DNA of 64,000 nt, from NCBI GenBank assembly GCA_022820545.1, contig JAJEFG010000093.1:1-64000 (forward strand), given 5' to 3'. The notes under the pieces were generated by a model that saw nothing but the letters and a program-made list of their open reading frames with translations, searched no databases and was not told where the DNA came from. A program made the translations under genes and the position numbers. Source of the DNA: Acidobacteriota bacterium (GTDB taxonomy: Bacteria; Acidobacteriota; Vicinamibacteria; Marinacidobacterales; Marinacidobacteraceae). Positions 9,055 through 63,569 of this stretch are shown piece by piece; within the stretch, counting starts at the first letter, position 1; each line of letters opens with the position of its first letter.

Positions 9055-9831
9055 CTAGCGAGAGGCAGCCGATACGGCGCGGGCCACGGTCAGGACGTCC
9101 ACGGGCCCGGCGCCCGCCCGGATCAGCGCCCGGACCGCCGCCTCGACCGTGCTCCCGGTGGTGAACACGTCGTCCACCAGCAGGAGGGGCCGGCCGGCGA
9201 GCCGCTCGGGCAGCCGCCCCGCCCGGAACGCTCCCCGCACGTTGCGCCGGCGGGCGCTCGGGCTGACCAGCGTCTGCGGTGGCCGGGACCGCCGGCGCAA
9301 CACGCCGCGAACCAGCGGAATCCCGAGCTCGCGGGTGACCTGCCGGGCCAGCAACTCGGCCTGGTTGAAACCGCGGCGCCTGCCCCGCCAGAACGGCACC
9401 GGAACCGCGACGACCGCGGCCGGGAACTCCCCCGCGGCCGAGACGCCGTGATTCCGGGAGGCACGGCGAAAGGCCGCAATGGCGGGCCGCGCCAGAAGCT
9501 CGGCGAGAACCTCCCGCCGCCGGAACTTGAGCTCCAGCAGGGCGCGCTGGAACACGCCCTCGTACGGCGCGGCGGCCACCGCCATCCGGAAGGGCCGCCG
9601 TCGCGCCCGGCACTCGCCGCAGCGGCCCGGCGCCGCGGAGGGCGCGAGGAACAGGCCGCACCTGGGACACGCGGGAACGGCAAGCGGGCGGAGGCAGGCG
9701 GCGCACTCGGGGCACGCCGGGCCCGCCAGCGGATCGGCGAGCGGCCCGTCGCAGAGGCAGCAGCCCTGGGGAAAGAGGAGCTGTCCGAAGGCGCGCCGGC
9801 ATCGCACCGGAAACGGAGGTTGGGCGGACAC
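9055..9831 (-). CDS. comF: ComF family phosphoribosyltransferase-like protein
   Basis: 258 residues. The N-terminal part is rich in paired cysteines (CCLC, CPEC, CPRC, CGEC), as in the zinc-binding domain of ComF. The C-terminal part is a PRTase domain with the PRPP-binding motif LLLVDDVFTTGST around residue 220. ComF proteins assist DNA uptake in competent bacteria, but in many genomes the role is unknown. GTG start. It lies between a membrane protein and a P1-nuclease-like protein on the same strand. Confidence 0.85.
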   Translation of the reverse strand: MSAQPPFPVRCRRAFGQLLFPQGCCLCDGPLADPLAGPACPECAACLRPLAVPACPRCGLFLAPSAAPGRCGECRARRRPFRMAVAAAPYEGVFQRALLELKFRRREVLAELLARPAIAAFRRASRNHGVSAAGEFPAAVVAVPVPFWRGRRRGFNQAELLARQVTRELGIPLVRGVLRRRSRPPQTLVSPSARRRNVRGAFRAGRLPERLAGRPLLLVDDVFTTGSTVEAAVRALIRAGAGPVDVLTVARAVSAASR

Positions 9832-9867
9832 GCGTTCGGGACGCAGGGCGCCGGAAAGGGCCGAGCC

Positions 9868-10686
9868 CTACAGGATCCGGTAGTCCGTGACCACACCCGT
9901 AGCGCAGAGCCGAACGTAGACGTCCGTGACCATCACCCAGACCAGGCTGGCCCAGGCGAAGCCCATGTGCCGGAGGTTGAACCAGCTCGTGCACTCGTAG
10001 GCGCAGCGGCGGAGCGGGCGCCCCGAGAGCCGGTCGAGAAACCCGCCGGCGAGGTGGCGCAGGGAATGACATCCCAAGGTGTAGCCGGCGAGCAGCGCGG
10101 CGTTCAGGGCCATCACCAGGGTTCCGACGCCAAGGCCGAAGGAAACCTCGCCGGTGACCGGATCGGCGAACCGGGTTGCCCCCCAGACGTAGTAGAGGTG
10201 CAATCCGATCCAGACCAACGCGATGTAGAGGAAGTAGCGGTGGACGTTCTGCAGGATGAGCGGGAAACTGTTTTCGCCGCGGTAGGTGTTCCACGGCTTG
10301 CCCACGGTGCACGAAGCCGGACTGCCCCAGAACGCCTTGTAGTACGAGCCGCGGTAGTAGTAGCAGGTGAGCCGCAGCCCCGCCGGCGCCCAGAACAGGA
10401 ATACGCCTGGCGCCCAGGGAAGGAGGGCCGGCCAGGCGGCCGGCTTGGGCCCGAACCAGGCGTGGGGCGTATCGCCGAAGAGCACCGGGACGTGGATCGG
10501 CGAAACGTAGTTGCCGAACTCGGCCCCGTGGTGCGTGAACACCGCCCAGGTCGAGTAGATGACGAACACGCTCAGGCCCACGAAGACGCCGGTCGGAGTG
10601 ACCCACCACGGATCGCAGCGTCTCGTGACGCCGAAACTCTGCGGGGCGGGCAGGACGCCACTGAGTTGAGGGAGCGATGAGGCCAC
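9868..10686 (-). CDS. Polytopic membrane protein, possibly cytochrome b-like anchor
   Basis: 272 residues with about five membrane segments (near residues 35-50, 90-110, 150-170, 185-205 and 240-258). Notable motifs are CYYYRGSYYKAFW, QNVHRYFLY and CHSLRHLAGG; the histidines in or near membrane helices could bind heme. The pattern resembles the membrane anchor proteins found beside succinate dehydrogenase genes in some GC-rich bacteria, but no sdhA or sdhB is present here, so this is a weak inference. GTG start. Confidence 0.5.
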   Translation of the reverse strand: MASSLPQLSGVLPAPQSFGVTRRCDPWWVTPTGVFVGLSVFVIYSTWAVFTHHGAEFGNYVSPIHVPVLFGDTPHAWFGPKPAAWPALLPWAPGVFLFWAPAGLRLTCYYYRGSYYKAFWGSPASCTVGKPWNTYRGENSFPLILQNVHRYFLYIALVWIGLHLYYVWGATRFADPVTGEVSFGLGVGTLVMALNAALLAGYTLGCHSLRHLAGGFLDRLSGRPLRRCAYECTSWFNLRHMGFAWASLVWVMVTDVYVRLCATGVVTDYRIL

Positions 10687-54790: not shown

Positions 54791-55939
54791 ATGACTGTGC
54801 GTGTACCCGTCCACGCCGGTGTACTCCGTTGGGCGTGCGAACGCGGCCGCCTCGAGCCGGAGACCCTGGCTCAGCGTTTTCCGGCGTTCCCGGCGTGGGC
54901 ACGCGGCGCGGAGAACCCAACGCTCAGACAGTTGGAGCGCTTTGCCAAGGCTTCGCGCACTCCCATCGGGTTCTTTTTCCTCTCCGAACCGCCGGAGGAG
55001 CGCCTTCCCATCCCGGACCTCCGCACCCTCGCGGACAGGCCGGTCGCGCGTCCGAGCGCCGACCTGCTCGACACGATCTACCTCTGTCAGCAACGGCAAG
55101 CGTGGTACCGCGACAACGCTCGCATGGAGGGAGAAGCGCCGCTGAGGTTTGTTGGCTCGGTGAGCCGTTCGGACGATGTCGAGGCCGTTGCCGATCGGAT
55201 CCGCACCGCGCTTCGGTTCGACCTCGAAGAACGGCGGCGTCTCACAACGTGGACTGCGGCTCTTCGGCTCTTCATCGAACAGGCGAACAACGTCGGGGTG
55301 CTCGTCATGGTCAGCGGCGTGGTCGGGAGCAACAACCGCCGGCGACTGGACTTCCGGGAGGTCCGCGGTTTCGCTCTGGTGGACGATCTGGCACCGGTCA
55401 TCTTCGTGAACGGCGCGGACTCAAAGTCGGCCCAGATGTTCACGCTGGCGCACGAGTTGGCCCATGTCTGGTTGGGCGAATCGGCGCTCTCCGACAGTGA
55501 GGACCGCGTCATTCCGGATCACAAGACGGAGCGCTTCTGCAACCAGGTGGCGGCCGAGATCCTGGCCCCGACCAGGATGGTGCGCGCCGAATACCGCTCC
55601 AGCGCGCCGCTCCCGGCAGAGACCACGCGACTCGCCCGCCACTTCAAGGTGAGCACGCTCGTGGTGCTACGACGCCTCCACGAACTCGGCGCCCTCGCGC
55701 GGCGGGAGTACTGGAACGCCTACGACGAAGAGCTGGACCGGCTCCGCACCGTGGCCCGTGACTCCGGCGGCGACTTCTACAGGAGCACCGGCGCCCGCGT
55801 CAGCAAGCAGTTCGCCCGGGCGGTCATCGGCGCCACGCTGGAAGGGCGCTCGTCCTACACAGAAGCCTTCCGCCTCCTCGGGTTCCGGAAGATGGCGACC
55901 TTCAACGAGCTGAGCCGCCGCCTGGGCCTGACTTCGTGA
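54791..55939 (+). CDS. ImmA/IrrE family metallopeptidase with N-terminal DNA-binding-like part
   Basis: 382 residues. The zinc motif HELAH is at residues 221-225, with DHKTERFCNQVAAEILAP after it, as in ImmA/IrrE. The N-terminus (about residues 1-80, TLRQLERFAKASRTPIGFFF) resembles XRE-type antitoxin-regulators of this class. The stop overlaps the next start by one base (TGATG), so the gene is coupled to the DUF4411 gene. This pairing is known as a toxin-antitoxin arrangement, with the present protein as antitoxin; that role is inferred. Confidence 0.85.
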   Translation: MTVRVPVHAGVLRWACERGRLEPETLAQRFPAFPAWARGAENPTLRQLERFAKASRTPIGFFFLSEPPEERLPIPDLRTLADRPVARPSADLLDTIYLCQQRQAWYRDNARMEGEAPLRFVGSVSRSDDVEAVADRIRTALRFDLEERRRLTTWTAALRLFIEQANNVGVLVMVSGVVGSNNRRRLDFREVRGFALVDDLAPVIFVNGADSKSAQMFTLAHELAHVWLGESALSDSEDRVIPDHKTERFCNQVAAEILAPTRMVRAEYRSSAPLPAETTRLARHFKVSTLVVLRRLHELGALARREYWNAYDEELDRLRTVARDSGGDFYRSTGARVSKQFARAVIGATLEGRSSYTEAFRLLGFRKMATFNELSRRLGLTS

Positions 55940-56491
55940 TGGCCTATCTGGTGGACGCCAATGTCCTGATCGCCGCGAAGAACCTTCACTGACGGCTTCG
56001 ACTTCTGTCCCGGCTTCTGGGACTGGATCGCGAGGAGCCACGAGCAGGGTCTGGTGCGTAGCGTGGAAAAGGTCGGTGACGAACTGCGCGGTGTGGACGA
56101 CGATCTTTCGGAGTGGGCGAAGGCGCGCGGCCCGTCATTCTTTGTTCCGGTGGACGCCGCCGGTTTCCCCGCACTCAAGGCCGTCAGCGACTGGCCGAGG
56201 CAGCAGGACTATGGAGCGACCGCCATCAACACCTTCCTTCAGTCAGGGGATTACTACCTGGTGAGCCAGGCCCTCGCCGGGCACCACACGGTGGTGACGC
56301 ACGAAGTGCCCACCGCAAGTCCCAAGAAGATCAAGATTCCCAACGCCTGCATCGGGTTGCAGATCAAGTGCATCACACCCTTCGACATGCTGCGCTCGGA
56401 GCGGGCACGATTCGTTCTGGGAGACACTGGCACAGGGATACAGACAATGACTCCGGGAAATCTGTTTCAATCTTCACTGGGACACCGATGA
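55939..56491 (+). pseudogene. DUF4411 PIN-like protein, frameshifted
   Basis: The start MAYLVDANVLIAAKNLH is DUF4411-like with the PIN-type aspartate, and the rest (GFDFCPGFWDWIARSHEQG to KIPNACIG and PFDMLRSE) follows in another frame. At 55987-55995 the sequence is CACTGACGG; removing the G at 55991 gives CAC TAC GGC and restores a continuous DUF4411 reading frame of about 183 residues. So a one-base insertion introduces a TGA at 55990. This may be a real inactivation or a sequencing error. Confidence 0.85.
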
Positions 56492-57030
56492 GCAAGATCA
56501 GCTCGACCATCGTCGGCGCCGCAGGCGAGTATCACGTGCTCAGTCAGTTGTTGCGGCGTGGCTGGATTGCGGCCCTAGCACCGGATGGGGCACCGAACAT
56601 GGACATCCTGGTCACCGACAAGAACTCCAAGAAGTTATGTGCCATCCAGGTGAAGACGCGACGTGACATCGGAGGCGACAAGGGCTGGCACATGAGGCCT
56701 AAGCACGAGACCATGGTCGCCAACGATCTGTTCTACGTCTTCGTCGACGTCGGCAAAAAGCCGTCCGATACGACAGTTTCCTATGTCCTTCCCTCAAGCG
56801 TGGTGGCGGCCTGTATTCGCGACTGCCACCAGGTGTGGCTCGACACTCCCGGCAAAGGAGGTCGGCAACACAAGGACAGCGACGTGCGTCGACTGTTACC
56901 CGACTACTCCAGTATCAAGCCGATCACGGAGAAAGGACGGAAGACGCTTGATCGGTATCGATCGGGCTGGCTTGACGCCTATCGCGAGAATTGGAGCATC
57001 CTGCGGTTGCCCGAAGCGGATGCCTTTTGA
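56488..57030 (+). CDS. PD-(D/E)XK nuclease-like protein
   Basis: 180 residues. E14 in GEYHV, D39 in NMDILV and Q54-V-K56 (AIQVKTRR) have the spacing of the PD-(D/E)XK nuclease core. Its ATG overlaps the DUF4411 stop as ATGA, so all three genes form one coupled unit. Related proteins include restriction-like and repair nucleases; the present role is not known. Confidence 0.72.
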   Translation: MSKISSTIVGAAGEYHVLSQLLRRGWIAALAPDGAPNMDILVTDKNSKKLCAIQVKTRRDIGGDKGWHMRPKHETMVANDLFYVFVDVGKKPSDTTVSYVLPSSVVAACIRDCHQVWLDTPGKGGRQHKDSDVRRLLPDYSSIKPITEKGRKTLDRYRSGWLDAYRENWSILRLPEADAF

Positions 57031-57484: not shown

Positions 57485-58693
57485 ATGATGGAACGACCAT
57501 ATCGCCTCTCCGCTCGCTTCGTCGCCACCATTGAGCGGCCCGGACGCTACGGCGACGGGCGCGGCTCCGGTGGCCTCTCCCTCCTCGTGAAGCACACGGC
57601 CCGAGGCCACCTGACCAAATCTTGGGCGCAGCGCATCAACCTGGACGGCCGCCAGCGCAATCTCGGACTCGGATCCTGGCCCCACGTCAGCCTCGCCGAG
57701 GCCCGCGAGAAGTGCGCCCTGAACCTCGCGGCGCGGCGGCGCGGGGAACTCGTGACCGGCCGACAGCGGACGGTCCCCACCTTCGAGGAGGCCGTCGAGA
57801 AGGTCATCGCCGTGCACCGGGCCGGCTGGAAGGATGACGGCAGGCAAGAGAAGCTGTGGCGGGCCAGTCTCCGGGACCACGCGATGCCGAAGCTCGGCGG
57901 GAGGCCGGTGCACCGGATCAACGCGGCGGACGTGATGGCGGTGCTGCTCCCGATCTGGAACGAGAAGCGGGTGACGGCGCGTCGGGTCCGGCAGCGGATC
58001 GGGGCGGTGATGCGGTGGGCGGTGGCGCAGGGTTACCGGGAGGACAACCCCGCTGGAGAGGCCATCGGTGCGGCGCTGCCGAAGAACGGATTCCGGCCGC
58101 AGCACCACCGGGCGCTCCCGTATGCCGAGGTCGGCGAAGCTATCCAGACGGTGCGGGCCTCCGGTGCCTATCCCGCGACCGCGCTGGCGTTCGAGTTCCT
58201 GGTGTTGACGGCGTGCCGCAGCGGCGAGGTGCGCGGCGCACTGTGGAAAGAGATCGACATCGAGGGCCGGGAGTGGCGGATTCCGGCGGAGCGGATGAAG
58301 ACGGGCCGGGAGCACCGCGTTCCGTTGTCCCGGCGAGCAATAGCCGTGCTGGAGGAGGCCCGGAGGCTCGCAGACGGTTCGGGATTCGTGTTCCGTTCAG
58401 CGCGTGGCCGGCCACTCTCCGAGGTGGCTATGCCGACGATGGTCCGCAAGCTCGGAATCGGCGCGGTGCCGCACGGGTTCCGGTCGAGCTTCCGGGACTG
58501 GGCGGCGGAGTGTTCGGACGCGCCGCGCGAAGTGTGCGAACTGGCGCTGGCCCACATGAACACGAACGCCATCGAGGCAGCCTACCGGCGTACGGACATG
58601 TTCGAGCGGCGGCGGGCGCTCATGGAGCAGTGGGGCGCATTCCTCGCCGCGACTGAGGACAAGTTCTCACCCCGTTCTGGAAAGGCAGCGTAG
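57485..58693 (+). CDS. int: P4-type tyrosine integrase
   Basis: 402 residues. The N-terminal part (about residues 1-95) is a DUF4102 arm-binding domain with GLGSWPHVSLAEARE. The C-terminal tyrosine recombinase shows R245 (TACRSGEVRG), K272 (MKTGREH), H330 and R333 (PHGFR), H357 (LAHMN) and the nucleophile Y367 (AAYRR), so it is complete. Such integrases insert genomic islands, often at tRNA genes, but none is seen nearby. It marks the region as a mobile island. Confidence 0.93.
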   Translation: MMERPYRLSARFVATIERPGRYGDGRGSGGLSLLVKHTARGHLTKSWAQRINLDGRQRNLGLGSWPHVSLAEAREKCALNLAARRRGELVTGRQRTVPTFEEAVEKVIAVHRAGWKDDGRQEKLWRASLRDHAMPKLGGRPVHRINAADVMAVLLPIWNEKRVTARRVRQRIGAVMRWAVAQGYREDNPAGEAIGAALPKNGFRPQHHRALPYAEVGEAIQTVRASGAYPATALAFEFLVLTACRSGEVRGALWKEIDIEGREWRIPAERMKTGREHRVPLSRRAIAVLEEARRLADGSGFVFRSARGRPLSEVAMPTMVRKLGIGAVPHGFRSSFRDWAAECSDAPREVCELALAHMNTNAIEAAYRRTDMFERRRALMEQWGAFLAATEDKFSPRSGKAA

Positions 58694-60941: not shown

Positions 60942-61994
60942 ATGCGCCTCAGCCGCTCCGTCTTCACCGAAGAACAACAGGGAGAATTGGTCTCCATGAA
61001 GCCTGCGGCGCCACCCGACGAGGCCGCCCTCGAAAGCCTGATCGCGCGCCATCCGGAGATCGTTTCCGAAGAAGAAGGAGAGCTCTTGCTCGTGCGTCGG
61101 CAAAAAGGCGTGCCGGACGCAGAAGGCGGCTTCAATCGTTGGGCGCTGGATCTGCTTTTCGTGACCCGGGACGCCGTCCCGGTGCTCATCGAGGTCAAGC
61201 GGGCGGCGAACAGCGAAATACGCCGTCAGGTTGTTGGCCAGCTGCTCGACTACGCCGCCAACGGGACAGCGCATTGGCCCCCCGGCGAAATCCAGCGCGC
61301 CTTCGAAGCAAACTGCGACGCACAAGACGAGGAATCAGAGGCGGTGCTCGAGACTTTTCTCGATGGACGGCACAGGGATGACTTCTGGCAGCGGGTGGAC
61401 GAGAACCTCGCTGCCGGCAGAGTGCGGCTGGTCGTTGCGGCAGACGCGATCCCGTCCGAACTCGCGAGGGTCGTGGAATTCCTGAACGACCAGATGCGGG
61501 CGGATGTCCGGGCGGTGGAACTGGGCTGGTTCGAGAGCGCCGATGGACGAAAGGCGTTGGTTCCACGGATCATCGGGGTCACCGAACGCACCCGCGCGGC
61601 AAAACTCGCCGGAAAACCACCGATCAGTCCTGAACAATGGATTGCCGAGCACTACGCGGATGCGCCGGACACAGCCTCGGGAATCCGCCGCCATCTCGAG
61701 ATCGCGGAGGAACTGGGGCTGGAGTCGGGCGTGACCCGGAAGCACGAAGCGATCTGGAGTGGACGCGGCAATCGATATCCGTTTCAGATCTACCGAAAAA
61801 ACCATGGGATAGCGCTGAACCTGAAGGGGGACGAGTCCCTCCGGAAAGGTCTGGTGGCTGCGGTCGGCGCGCTTGATGCCGACAACAAGGAATGGCCTCG
61901 GTTTCGTGTCCAGCGCCTCAACGATCTGGGTGTGCGGAACCGATACCGGGAGTTCCTAGAGACGTTCATCAAAGAGGCCGGGATCGCCACCTGA
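60942..61994 (+). CDS. PD-(D/E)XK endonuclease-like protein
   Basis: 350 residues. The N-terminal domain has ESLIARHPEIV, D70 (WALDLLFV), E84-V-K86 (VLIEVKRA) and QLLDYAANG near residue 100, the pattern of a NucS/RecB-type PD-(D/E)XK domain. The C-terminal half (about residues 200-350) is not recognised. ATG start at 60942; M19 (60996) is a second possibility. It may be an island defence or repair gene; the role is unknown. Confidence 0.65.
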   Translation: MRLSRSVFTEEQQGELVSMKPAAPPDEAALESLIARHPEIVSEEEGELLLVRRQKGVPDAEGGFNRWALDLLFVTRDAVPVLIEVKRAANSEIRRQVVGQLLDYAANGTAHWPPGEIQRAFEANCDAQDEESEAVLETFLDGRHRDDFWQRVDENLAAGRVRLVVAADAIPSELARVVEFLNDQMRADVRAVELGWFESADGRKALVPRIIGVTERTRAAKLAGKPPISPEQWIAEHYADAPDTASGIRRHLEIAEELGLESGVTRKHEAIWSGRGNRYPFQIYRKNHGIALNLKGDESLRKGLVAAVGALDADNKEWPRFRVQRLNDLGVRNRYREFLETFIKEAGIAT

Positions 61995-62091
61995 GACCCG
62001 CAGGCGCGGTTCTCCGTCAAGAGAAGTGGTCGGGCCTACTCGTCCTGCCGGTGGAACGCGGCGCCGCCTCCGCCAACGCGGGGGCCGACCG

Positions 62092-63042
62092 GTGACAAAG
62101 GCCTTCGAGCCAAGGATCCCCGGCCCGTGGCCCATGCCCCACCTTGAACACCGGACGGCCGCCGTGCAGGCCCTCGGATGGTCGCCGGCCGACGCCCACT
62201 GGCTCGCCTTGGTCTGCCTCTACTCCGGGGTCTTCACCCGCCTCCAATACCGGGACTGGCATCACCGGGACAAGTACGCCGCGAGACGCTTCGTGCGGCG
62301 CCTCACCGCGGCCGGCGTCGCCCGCGAACACCCCCTCCCAGAGCGGCGCACCCCGCAGCGCTTCTGCCATGTCTTCGGGCGAACCCTCTACCGCTCCCTC
62401 GGCATCGAGAACGCCCACCAGCGCCGCCTCGGATCCGCAGCCCTGCTCTGGCGCCGCCTGCTCACCCTGGACTGCCTGCTCGCCCATCCCGACGCGAACT
62501 GGCTCGCCACCGGCGAGGAGAAGCTGCTGTTCTTCCTCCAACGCGGATACGACGAGGAGGATCTACCGCAACGCCGCCTCGGGGACCGGGCCCTGGACCG
62601 TGCCTCCCTCCACCCCATCGCGGTCGAAGAGCGCCGCGTGAGCTTTGTCTTTCCCGACCCGGGCCACGGAACCAGCCGGGCGCTCTACTACTGGGCTGCC
62701 GACCACCTGTTCCTCTGGGAGGCGCTGCGCCTCGACGGCGTCGAGGTCGTAGTGATCGCGGCGGTCCGCGACGACGCCGCGAGGGCTCTCTACGAGGAGA
62801 CCCTGTTCCGCTGGACGCCGGACGGCGCCGCCCTGAACGAGGACGAACGCTCATTCCTGCAGGCGATCCAGACGGCGCGGCGGCATCCGGACCCGGACGA
62901 GATCGGGAAGTGGCTCGGCTGGGAGGAGGCGCACGAAATCGAGACACGGCTCCGCCCCCGGCTCCATCGGCCTCCGGCCAGGATCGACCGGTACACCGTC
63001 CACTTCGCGGAGCGCCTGGACGACTCCGACCTCGGTTTCTGA
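62092..63042 (+). CDS. Possible replication-relaxation-like winged-helix protein
   Basis: 316 residues from the GTG at 62092. Residues 25-80 (QALGWSPADAHWLALVCLYS, FTRLQYRDWH, RFVRRLTAAGVARE) look like a winged helix, and the FCHVFGRTLYRSLG segment follows. This resembles the replication-relaxation proteins of some mobile elements, but similarity is only by eye. It is followed by the hairpin-rich stretch. Confidence 0.45.
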   Translation: MTKAFEPRIPGPWPMPHLEHRTAAVQALGWSPADAHWLALVCLYSGVFTRLQYRDWHHRDKYAARRFVRRLTAAGVAREHPLPERRTPQRFCHVFGRTLYRSLGIENAHQRRLGSAALLWRRLLTLDCLLAHPDANWLATGEEKLLFFLQRGYDEEDLPQRRLGDRALDRASLHPIAVEERRVSFVFPDPGHGTSRALYYWAADHLFLWEALRLDGVEVVVIAAVRDDAARALYEETLFRWTPDGAALNEDERSFLQAIQTARRHPDPDEIGKWLGWEEAHEIETRLRPRLHRPPARIDRYTVHFAERLDDSDLGF

Positions 63043-63569
63043 GGTTTCGACCTCGTTTGGGCCGCTTTGCGGACGCAACTAAGCCGACCCCTCTTTTGCC
63101 ACTGCTTTTGCCAGTCCGGTGAGCGCGATTCCCTTTGTCTCCCTTGGGAGTTCGCCCCGCTGACCCCGCAATTCGGGGTCATAGGGAACGGGGCTGCAAG
63201 GACCCCCCTTTTCCTAGTCGAAAAACTGCCCCGGAAGGGAGTGCTCGTCGCACTCTCCCCTTCCGTGCCGGGGGTCGCTTGCAGCCCACGCCTACGGCGC
63301 GACTGATCCCTGCGGGAAGGCTGTTCCGGGCTGATGGCGTCATCAGCGTCCCGATCCTCGTGGAGTCCTCGAGGACTCAGCTCGCGCTCCCGATCAACCC
63401 GACCACCGCGGTCGGCCGCGCCCGTATCCCCACGCTCCGCTACCGTGAATTCCCCGACGCTGGTGATGCTCCGATCCCGGACCTCAATCCGGGAGACGGC
63501 GGAGCGCCGCCCACCGCCTCTGAGCTGACCCGCCAACCAGCGACCAGGGAGCACTCGTGCAGGTTGATG
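63043..63569. other. Hairpin-rich stretch without a supported gene
   Basis: No protein is supported. Six hairpins are found in about 330 nt: TGACCCCG/CGGGGTCA (63161-63181); an outer arm 63191-63207 pairing with 63270-63287, with an inner arm 63229-63244 pairing with 63250-63273; GCTGATG/CATCAGC (63330-63347); the 16-nt palindrome GAGTCCTCGAGGACTC (63363-63378); and CCCGGA/TCCGGG (63476-63493). A direct repeat of CTTTTGCCA lies at 63093 and 63105. It may be a structured RNA, an origin or an attachment site. Confidence 0.5.
63161..63493. repeat. Array of inverted repeats
   Basis: The long central element 63191-63287 folds as an outer 17-bp arm with one bulge, a side stretch of about 21 nt and an inner stem around the loop TCGTC. 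Others flank it at short intervals. Confidence 0.6.

Follow-up and report, generated by a model that had tools for sequence, protein, structure and literature searches.

Conjugative relaxases of the class MOBC correspond to the Replic_Relax family PF13814 (PMC5357655). They have a PD-(D/E)XK fold, and recombination at the origin of transfer (oriT) is possible for them (PMC5714925). MOBC relaxases are found on both conjugative and mobilisable elements, and pAD1 TraX, which has an N-terminal winged helix, recognises direct repeats located 70-120 bp from nic (PMC12857230). Islands that use oriT mimicry are relaxase-less and mobilised in trans, carrying an integrase and a copy of a putative transfer site (reviewed in PMC11389934). 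Hairpins on mobile DNA also act as start sites: the RSF1010 relative of RepB-type primases starts at ssiA and ssiB, hairpin sites of ~40 nt (PMC4434180), and ICEBs1 has a single-strand origin, sso (PMC4595007). In REP/RAYT systems a protein gene has an adjacent palindrome, and there are many orphan copies of the palindrome. To our knowledge, conjugation in Acidobacteriota has hardly been studied.

We analysed a window of 64,000 nucleotides from contig C43 of a 3.46-Mb Acidobacteriota genome and observed a DNA element of conserved structure that had not been described before, the hairpin module (HP). It lies directly behind a gene for a winged-helix protein (RR) on integrating and conjugative islands of Acidobacteriota (Table 1). 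Like the MOBC systems (CloDF13 MobC, pAD1 TraX with its oriT, PF13814 proteins), RR has an N-terminal winged helix and its gene lies beside that of a VirD4-type coupling protein. Unlike them, it has no PF13814 sequence match and no PD...E residues, and no direct repeats of the kind bound by TraX were seen at HP. The HP islands resemble those using oriT mimicry in combining an integrase with a copy of a putative transfer site and no relaxase, but here helper and island occur within one genus and mobilisation of the island is putative. HP shares with sso and ssiA/ssiB its modular, strand-folded hairpins on mobile DNA and the presence of a RepB-type primase on the conjugative element; it differs from these sites in being larger, coupled to RR and far more variable inside its outer stem. 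A protein gene with an adjacent palindrome and many orphan copies is common to RR-HP and REP/RAYT, whereas RR-HP has no Y1 transposase and occurs in a type IV secretion (T4SS) or integrase context.

Table 1. Features of the RR-HP locus and its island in the window (positions in the 64,000-nt stretch).
Feature	Position	Strand	Remarks
P4-type tyrosine integrase, island of the window HP	57485..58693	+	PF00589, PF22022, phrog_1
RR gene, winged-helix protein, 302 aa	62134..63042	+	ATG 62134; GTG starts possible upstream at 62026 or 62092
Whole hairpin module (HP)	63061..63321	+	Repeated among copies with unrelated flanks on both sides; ~250-330 nt
Upstream hairpin TGACCCCG-CAATT-CGGGGTCA	63161..63181	+	Different stem at this place in other HP subfamilies
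Core hairpin element	63190..63321	+	Match to covariance model R1, 116 bits
Outer stem, 5' arm	63191..63208	+	Contains the GCGACCC block, which is conserved and lacks one base in the window copy
Inner hairpin b, TTTTC...GAAAA	63209..63224	+	Seen in fold
Inner hairpin c, GGAAGGGAGTGC...GCACTCTCCCCTTCC	63232..63265	+	Highly variable among copies
Outer stem, 3' arm, GGGTCGCTTGCAGCCC	63270..63287	+	Pairs with 63191-63208
Small hairpin d, CGCC-TAC-GGCG	63289..63299	+	Missing from HP of the second family
Terminal motif TGATCCCTGCGGGAAGGC, stem TCCC/GGGA (hairpin 63307-63317)	63304..63321	+	Near-invariant; sharp 3' boundary of the module
Degenerate 5' remnant of VirD4/TraG-like coupling-protein gene	63334..63486	+	ATG 63334; residues 11-51 readable in another frame

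DNA search recovered the stretch in every genome of the genus. Folding of 63073-63330 exceeded that of all 200 shuffled sequences on both strands (z = -3.6 for the + strand and -3.7 for the - strand), whereas 63322-63493 folded at chance level (z = -1.14; 24 of 200 shuffles as good). A sequence-only reading of this DNA had placed a hairpin array at 63161-63493. The hairpins were confirmed as far as 63321; the DNA beyond folds like a shuffle and is a remnant of a coupling-protein gene. When translated, 63363-63485 aligns to a T4SS coupling protein at residues 11-51 (46% identity, E 6e-7), in a frame other than that of the ATG at 63334; the DNA from 63322 onward is thus a decayed gene. The last 170 nt of the range in the sequence-only reading therefore do not belong to the array. 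The nested element that it saw at 63191-63287 was borne out, with 18-nt arms (63191-63208 and 63270-63287) that are 83% complementary and enclose two inner hairpins. At its 3' end the module breaks off sharply: of 1034 pairwise alignments, 611 terminate between -4 and +3 of the last base of GATCCCTGCGGGAAGGC. The exact terminal 17-mer occurs 4 to 12 times per genome in each of five genomes, compared to ~0 to 1 matches per strand for a reversed-17-mer control, even with two mismatches allowed.

The covariance model R1 identified HP in all eight genomes of the genus (8/8), with 6-17 copies each; beyond the genus it matched HP over its full length, at E 4e-8 to 3e-4, in a second family of the class. 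The second-family copies retain AGCGACCC/GGGTCGCT as blocks, together with a GGAAGG-containing terminal hairpin, and have a loop of down to 8 nt. Among 30 diverse copies, 93.9% of cells in the outer stem were paired and five of its pairs showed double changes. For the whole structure 89.7% of cells were paired, compared to 83.1% in shuffles, and compensatory double-change cells numbered 54 against 21.5. Sliding the partner columns by 1 to 3 reduced pairing from 90% to 39-52%. Conservation of pairing in homologous islands was the test that the sequence-only reading had set for itself, and this 30-copy covariation provides it. The sequence of hairpins b and c is almost wholly different between copies, yet both were recovered in most single-sequence folds. 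The outer-stem arms are still complementary though the loop between them ranges from 8 to 75 nt, which argues that they work as a folded hairpin and not as spaced half-sites. Covarying helices such as these are expected of a structured RNA, and a folded DNA site predicts them too. No relatives of HP or RR were found in the plasmid and phage collections searched.

Next to this conservation stands the linkage of the two parts. In the genus, 20 of 33 RR genes have a co-directional HP within 1.3 kb, 263-1178 nt downstream (chance ~0.2% per gene), as counted from independent searches for RR relatives and for HP copies. The proportion is higher in the fetched loci, at 23 of 25 distinct RR genes, but most of these were chosen for having HP, so that 20/33 is the unbiased count to use. 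A downstream HP is absent for 13 of the 33 genes, at least four of which lie at contig ends; at locus L221 an RR gene is paired with a coupling-protein gene and the gap between them has no HP. Distances between RR sequences and between HP sequences are correlated across the genus (Mantel r = 0.75, p = 5e-5), a value that linkage alone could inflate, while integrase and HP did not co-vary (r = 0.04, p = 0.30). RR and HP very probably constitute a conserved cassette of conjugative and mobilisable elements. Most HP copies (73 of 93) are orphans that have no RR upstream, many of them near an integrase. Watson-Crick pairing in their stems is 94.2%, compared to 96.4% in RR-linked copies; since the stem is nearly as intact, the orphans are probably still used.

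We then considered RR itself, relatives of which are present in 38 of 100 genomes of the class. The block of DNA homology around the gene starts at ~62071-62100. An AlphaFold2 model (pLDDT 85.4) searched with Foldseek has an N-terminal MarR-like winged helix, in support of the sequence-only reading, which had suggested a winged-helix gene upstream of the hairpins; synteny strongly backs the connection with mobile-element transfer that it also suggested. RR matched no Pfam, PHROG or NCBIfam family. Its best full-length structural match in BFVD was gp146 of Bacillus phage G (E 8.6e-4, TM 0.44), which is a Replic_Relax protein (PF13814, 89 bits). None of 22 RR members matched PF13814 at E <= 0.01, and the f9 members likewise gave no match. 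Profile comparison of RR with Replic_Relax proteins of phages and conjugative elements recovered the winged helix at best, and weakly. As for the PD...(E)X catalytic residues, the PD is present in distant members (FPDKLPI) and lost in the genus, and the second acidic residue is absent. RR may be a MOBC/Replic_Relax relative that has diverged and lacks the nuclease motif. Because the PF13814 test failed and catalytic residues are missing, we do not class it as MOBC, and since RR does not conserve the Replic_Relax PD-(D/E)XK residues, it is doubtful that it cuts DNA. Neither the Pfam, PHROG and NCBIfam profiles nor the structure match identified RR as a Y1/HUH transposase. An RR gene of 88% identity is carried by a 14-kb contig with low coverage in a Gemmatimonadetes bin (L008), either by inter-phylum transfer or by mis-binning.

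The cassette occurs in two settings. On conjugative elements, where the RR gene adjoins that of the VirD4-type coupling protein, the gene order is trbL-trbF-RR-HP-coupling protein-trbB in several genomes and another genus. The full set comprises a RepB-type primase, ArdC, a PF13814 protein, VirB2/3/4-, TrbG-, TrbI-, TrbL- and TrbF-like proteins, RR, HP, the coupling protein and a TrbB-like ATPase. The coupling protein, TrbI, primase, ArdC and PF13814 protein were tested with Pfam, and the small VirB/Trb proteins were named by position and appearance. The coupling protein was matched by PF10412/PF12696, with no match to the T4SS model PF02534. The PF13814 protein, encoded at 9412-10314 of locus L142 (G000 C20), scored at the cut-off (25.3 bits) and has a PD...E pattern. 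A search for PF13814 in the genus gave no match at E <= 0.001 and equally none in control genomes, so that absence is not established by it. HP ends 11-14 nt before the start codon of the coupling-protein gene; in the other genus, of the same family, the order trbF-RR-HP-coupling protein is kept and the distance is 11 nt.

The second setting is P4-type integrase islands with the order integrase-RR-HP, which are found in the second family too. Cargo genes seen on the island of the window (window 54791-57030 and 60942-61994; C43 66684-68207) include an IrrE/ImmA-like peptidase and a DUF4411 protein. By eye, two further genes code for a probable DNA cytosine methyltransferase and for a protein of unknown family similar to one on a G094 island. 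Several islands per genome carry a PF03432 (MOBP) relaxase and MobC, with a P4-type integrase upstream (L156-L185, e.g. L182 4068-5300). Their putative oriT is a conserved palindromic region upstream of mobC, e.g. CCCAATGTATAGACATTGGG. In two of these loci that were read (L182, L167) an HU-like gene is also present. On integrase islands, HP occupies the slot where MOBP islands carry their own palindromic region and mobC. We rejected HP as an oriT of the PF03432 relaxases, as mobC and a conserved palindromic region unlike HP accompany them; an apparent GTGATCATCGGGAAGGC match at the MOBP oriT is an unrelated stem present in some copies only.

Taken together, sequence and synteny lead us to favour, by a little, the reading that HP is a hairpin-forming, cis-acting DNA site of conjugative mobilisation, an oriT or a relaxosome-assembly site, with RR as its cognate DNA-binding protein. 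Such a site fits the position near relaxosome-type and coupling-protein genes, the integrase islands, the use of orphans in trans and the DNA-type hairpin. In keeping with an oriT, HP has inverted repeats beside a conserved motif, with relaxosome and coupling-protein genes close by, and orphan copies lie on integrase islands that have no transfer genes of their own. Against it, the MOBP islands of the same genomes carry, beside mobC, a putative oriT that differs from HP. RR would recognise HP through its winged helix, after which HP would be nicked and the DNA transferred; the PF13814 protein of the conjugative element, with its PD...E motif, is a better candidate nuclease than RR. On conjugative elements the pair would act from its place between trbF and the coupling-protein gene, and islands carry integrase-RR-HP, or an HP alone that would be mobilised in trans by oriT mimicry. 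We hold it unlikely, though worth stating, that RR and HP represent a new kind of conjugative initiation for Acidobacteriota conjugative elements and many relaxase-less islands travelling with them, in which a large expandable hairpin is recognised by a winged-helix protein that is neither a HUH nor a PD-(D/E)XK nuclease. A transfer site that can be searched by covariance and is linked to conjugative and integrase genes would allow mobilisable islands to be listed, including relaxase-less ones, and would give a lead to the missing DNA-processing protein of T4SS elements of this kind. HP would also be a transfer-type site whose fold persists although its loop varies from 8 to 75 nt and hardly any of its stem sequence stays the same.

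The sequence-only reading had named four possible functions, namely origin, transfer site, recombination site and structured RNA. Of these the transfer site fits best, and the RNA has become less likely. An RNA could be a leader or regulator on the RR-coupling protein transcript or a trans-acting small island RNA, perhaps bound by RR, and HP does have several covarying hairpins with variable stems and lies on the coding strand between the two genes, ending 11-14 nt before the start codon. In RNA helices, G.U is usually tolerated far better than A.C. In HP, G.U mispairs do not exceed A.C, with 16 versus 17 in the outer stem and 60 versus 68 over all modelled pairs, although these counts are small. 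Both strands fold equally, sequence is strongly conserved within the stem (AGCGACCC/GGGTCGCT), HP has no Rfam match at the gathering cut-off or at E <= 5, and its 3' end has no T-run like that of an intrinsic terminator. These observations make a DNA site the better reading and an RNA rather improbable; orphan copies, moreover, face away from or converge with neighbouring genes. A guide RNA of the TnpB type was dropped because conjugative copies have a fixed coupling-protein gene downstream. More improbable again is a single-strand origin or primase start of the sso/ssi kind, used for second-strand synthesis of the transferred DNA. It would suit a modular hairpin site present on many elements, one of which encodes a RepB-type primase, but HP is tightly coupled to and co-varies with RR and not the primase, no HP was seen on the MOBP islands examined, and ssi sites are only ~40 nt long (PMC4434180).

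We give a low probability to an integrase attachment or recombination site, or a folded site like attC. P4-type integrases close to HP in many loci, the sharp 3' boundary with changing DNA downstream and the mosaic left and right flanks in G094 would agree with such a site. However, integrase and HP do not co-vary in the genus, HP has no constant position or orientation with respect to the integrase, the islands are not bordered by direct repeats of HP, and the window copy is embedded in its island, with cargo to either side. In L110 the integrase start is directly preceded by a tRNA-Ser, at the usual attachment position of P4-type integrases. Relaxases, too, can recombine oriTs (PMC5714925). 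An attachment site at a tRNA end was also rejected: no tRNA lies within 700 nt downstream of any HP, and one T-loop-like match was isolated. The least probable explanation is a dispersed REP- or MITE-like repeat that has no transfer role, with RR as a mobilising or domesticated partner. Multiple copies with sharp ends, and a protein gene with an adjacent palindrome and many orphans, are what this predicts; yet RR is not a Y1/HUH transposase, the copies are concentrated near T4SS or integrase genes, and the order RR-HP-coupling protein is conserved across genera.

Several minor observations concern individual HP copies. One subfamily has a CCATCC...GGATGG inner hairpin and mostly no RR (L098 2067-2198(-), L107 2253-2384(-), L077 12573-12704(-) and L133 near 1519). 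In G094, a minimal HP lies beside a divergently read ribbon-helix-helix-like gene (L210-L214). The left and right flanks of G094 copies are shuffled around HP, and one pair has 5 kb of downstream DNA in common at 99.7% but not the upstream DNA; one downstream block has genes that by appearance resemble CRISPR-Cas subunits. A CRISPR array near HP copies was considered and rejected, as its 82-bp repeat is a palindromic tandem repeat instead. Finally, a dispersed palindromic repeat, CGGCTTGGAACGCCG...GCGGCCCGCAGGGCCGC, which in places forms tandem arrays of 82-bp units, occurs near several HP copies (L084 4723-5360, L085 5973-6264 and C43 68531-68577), the last of these just to the right of the window.
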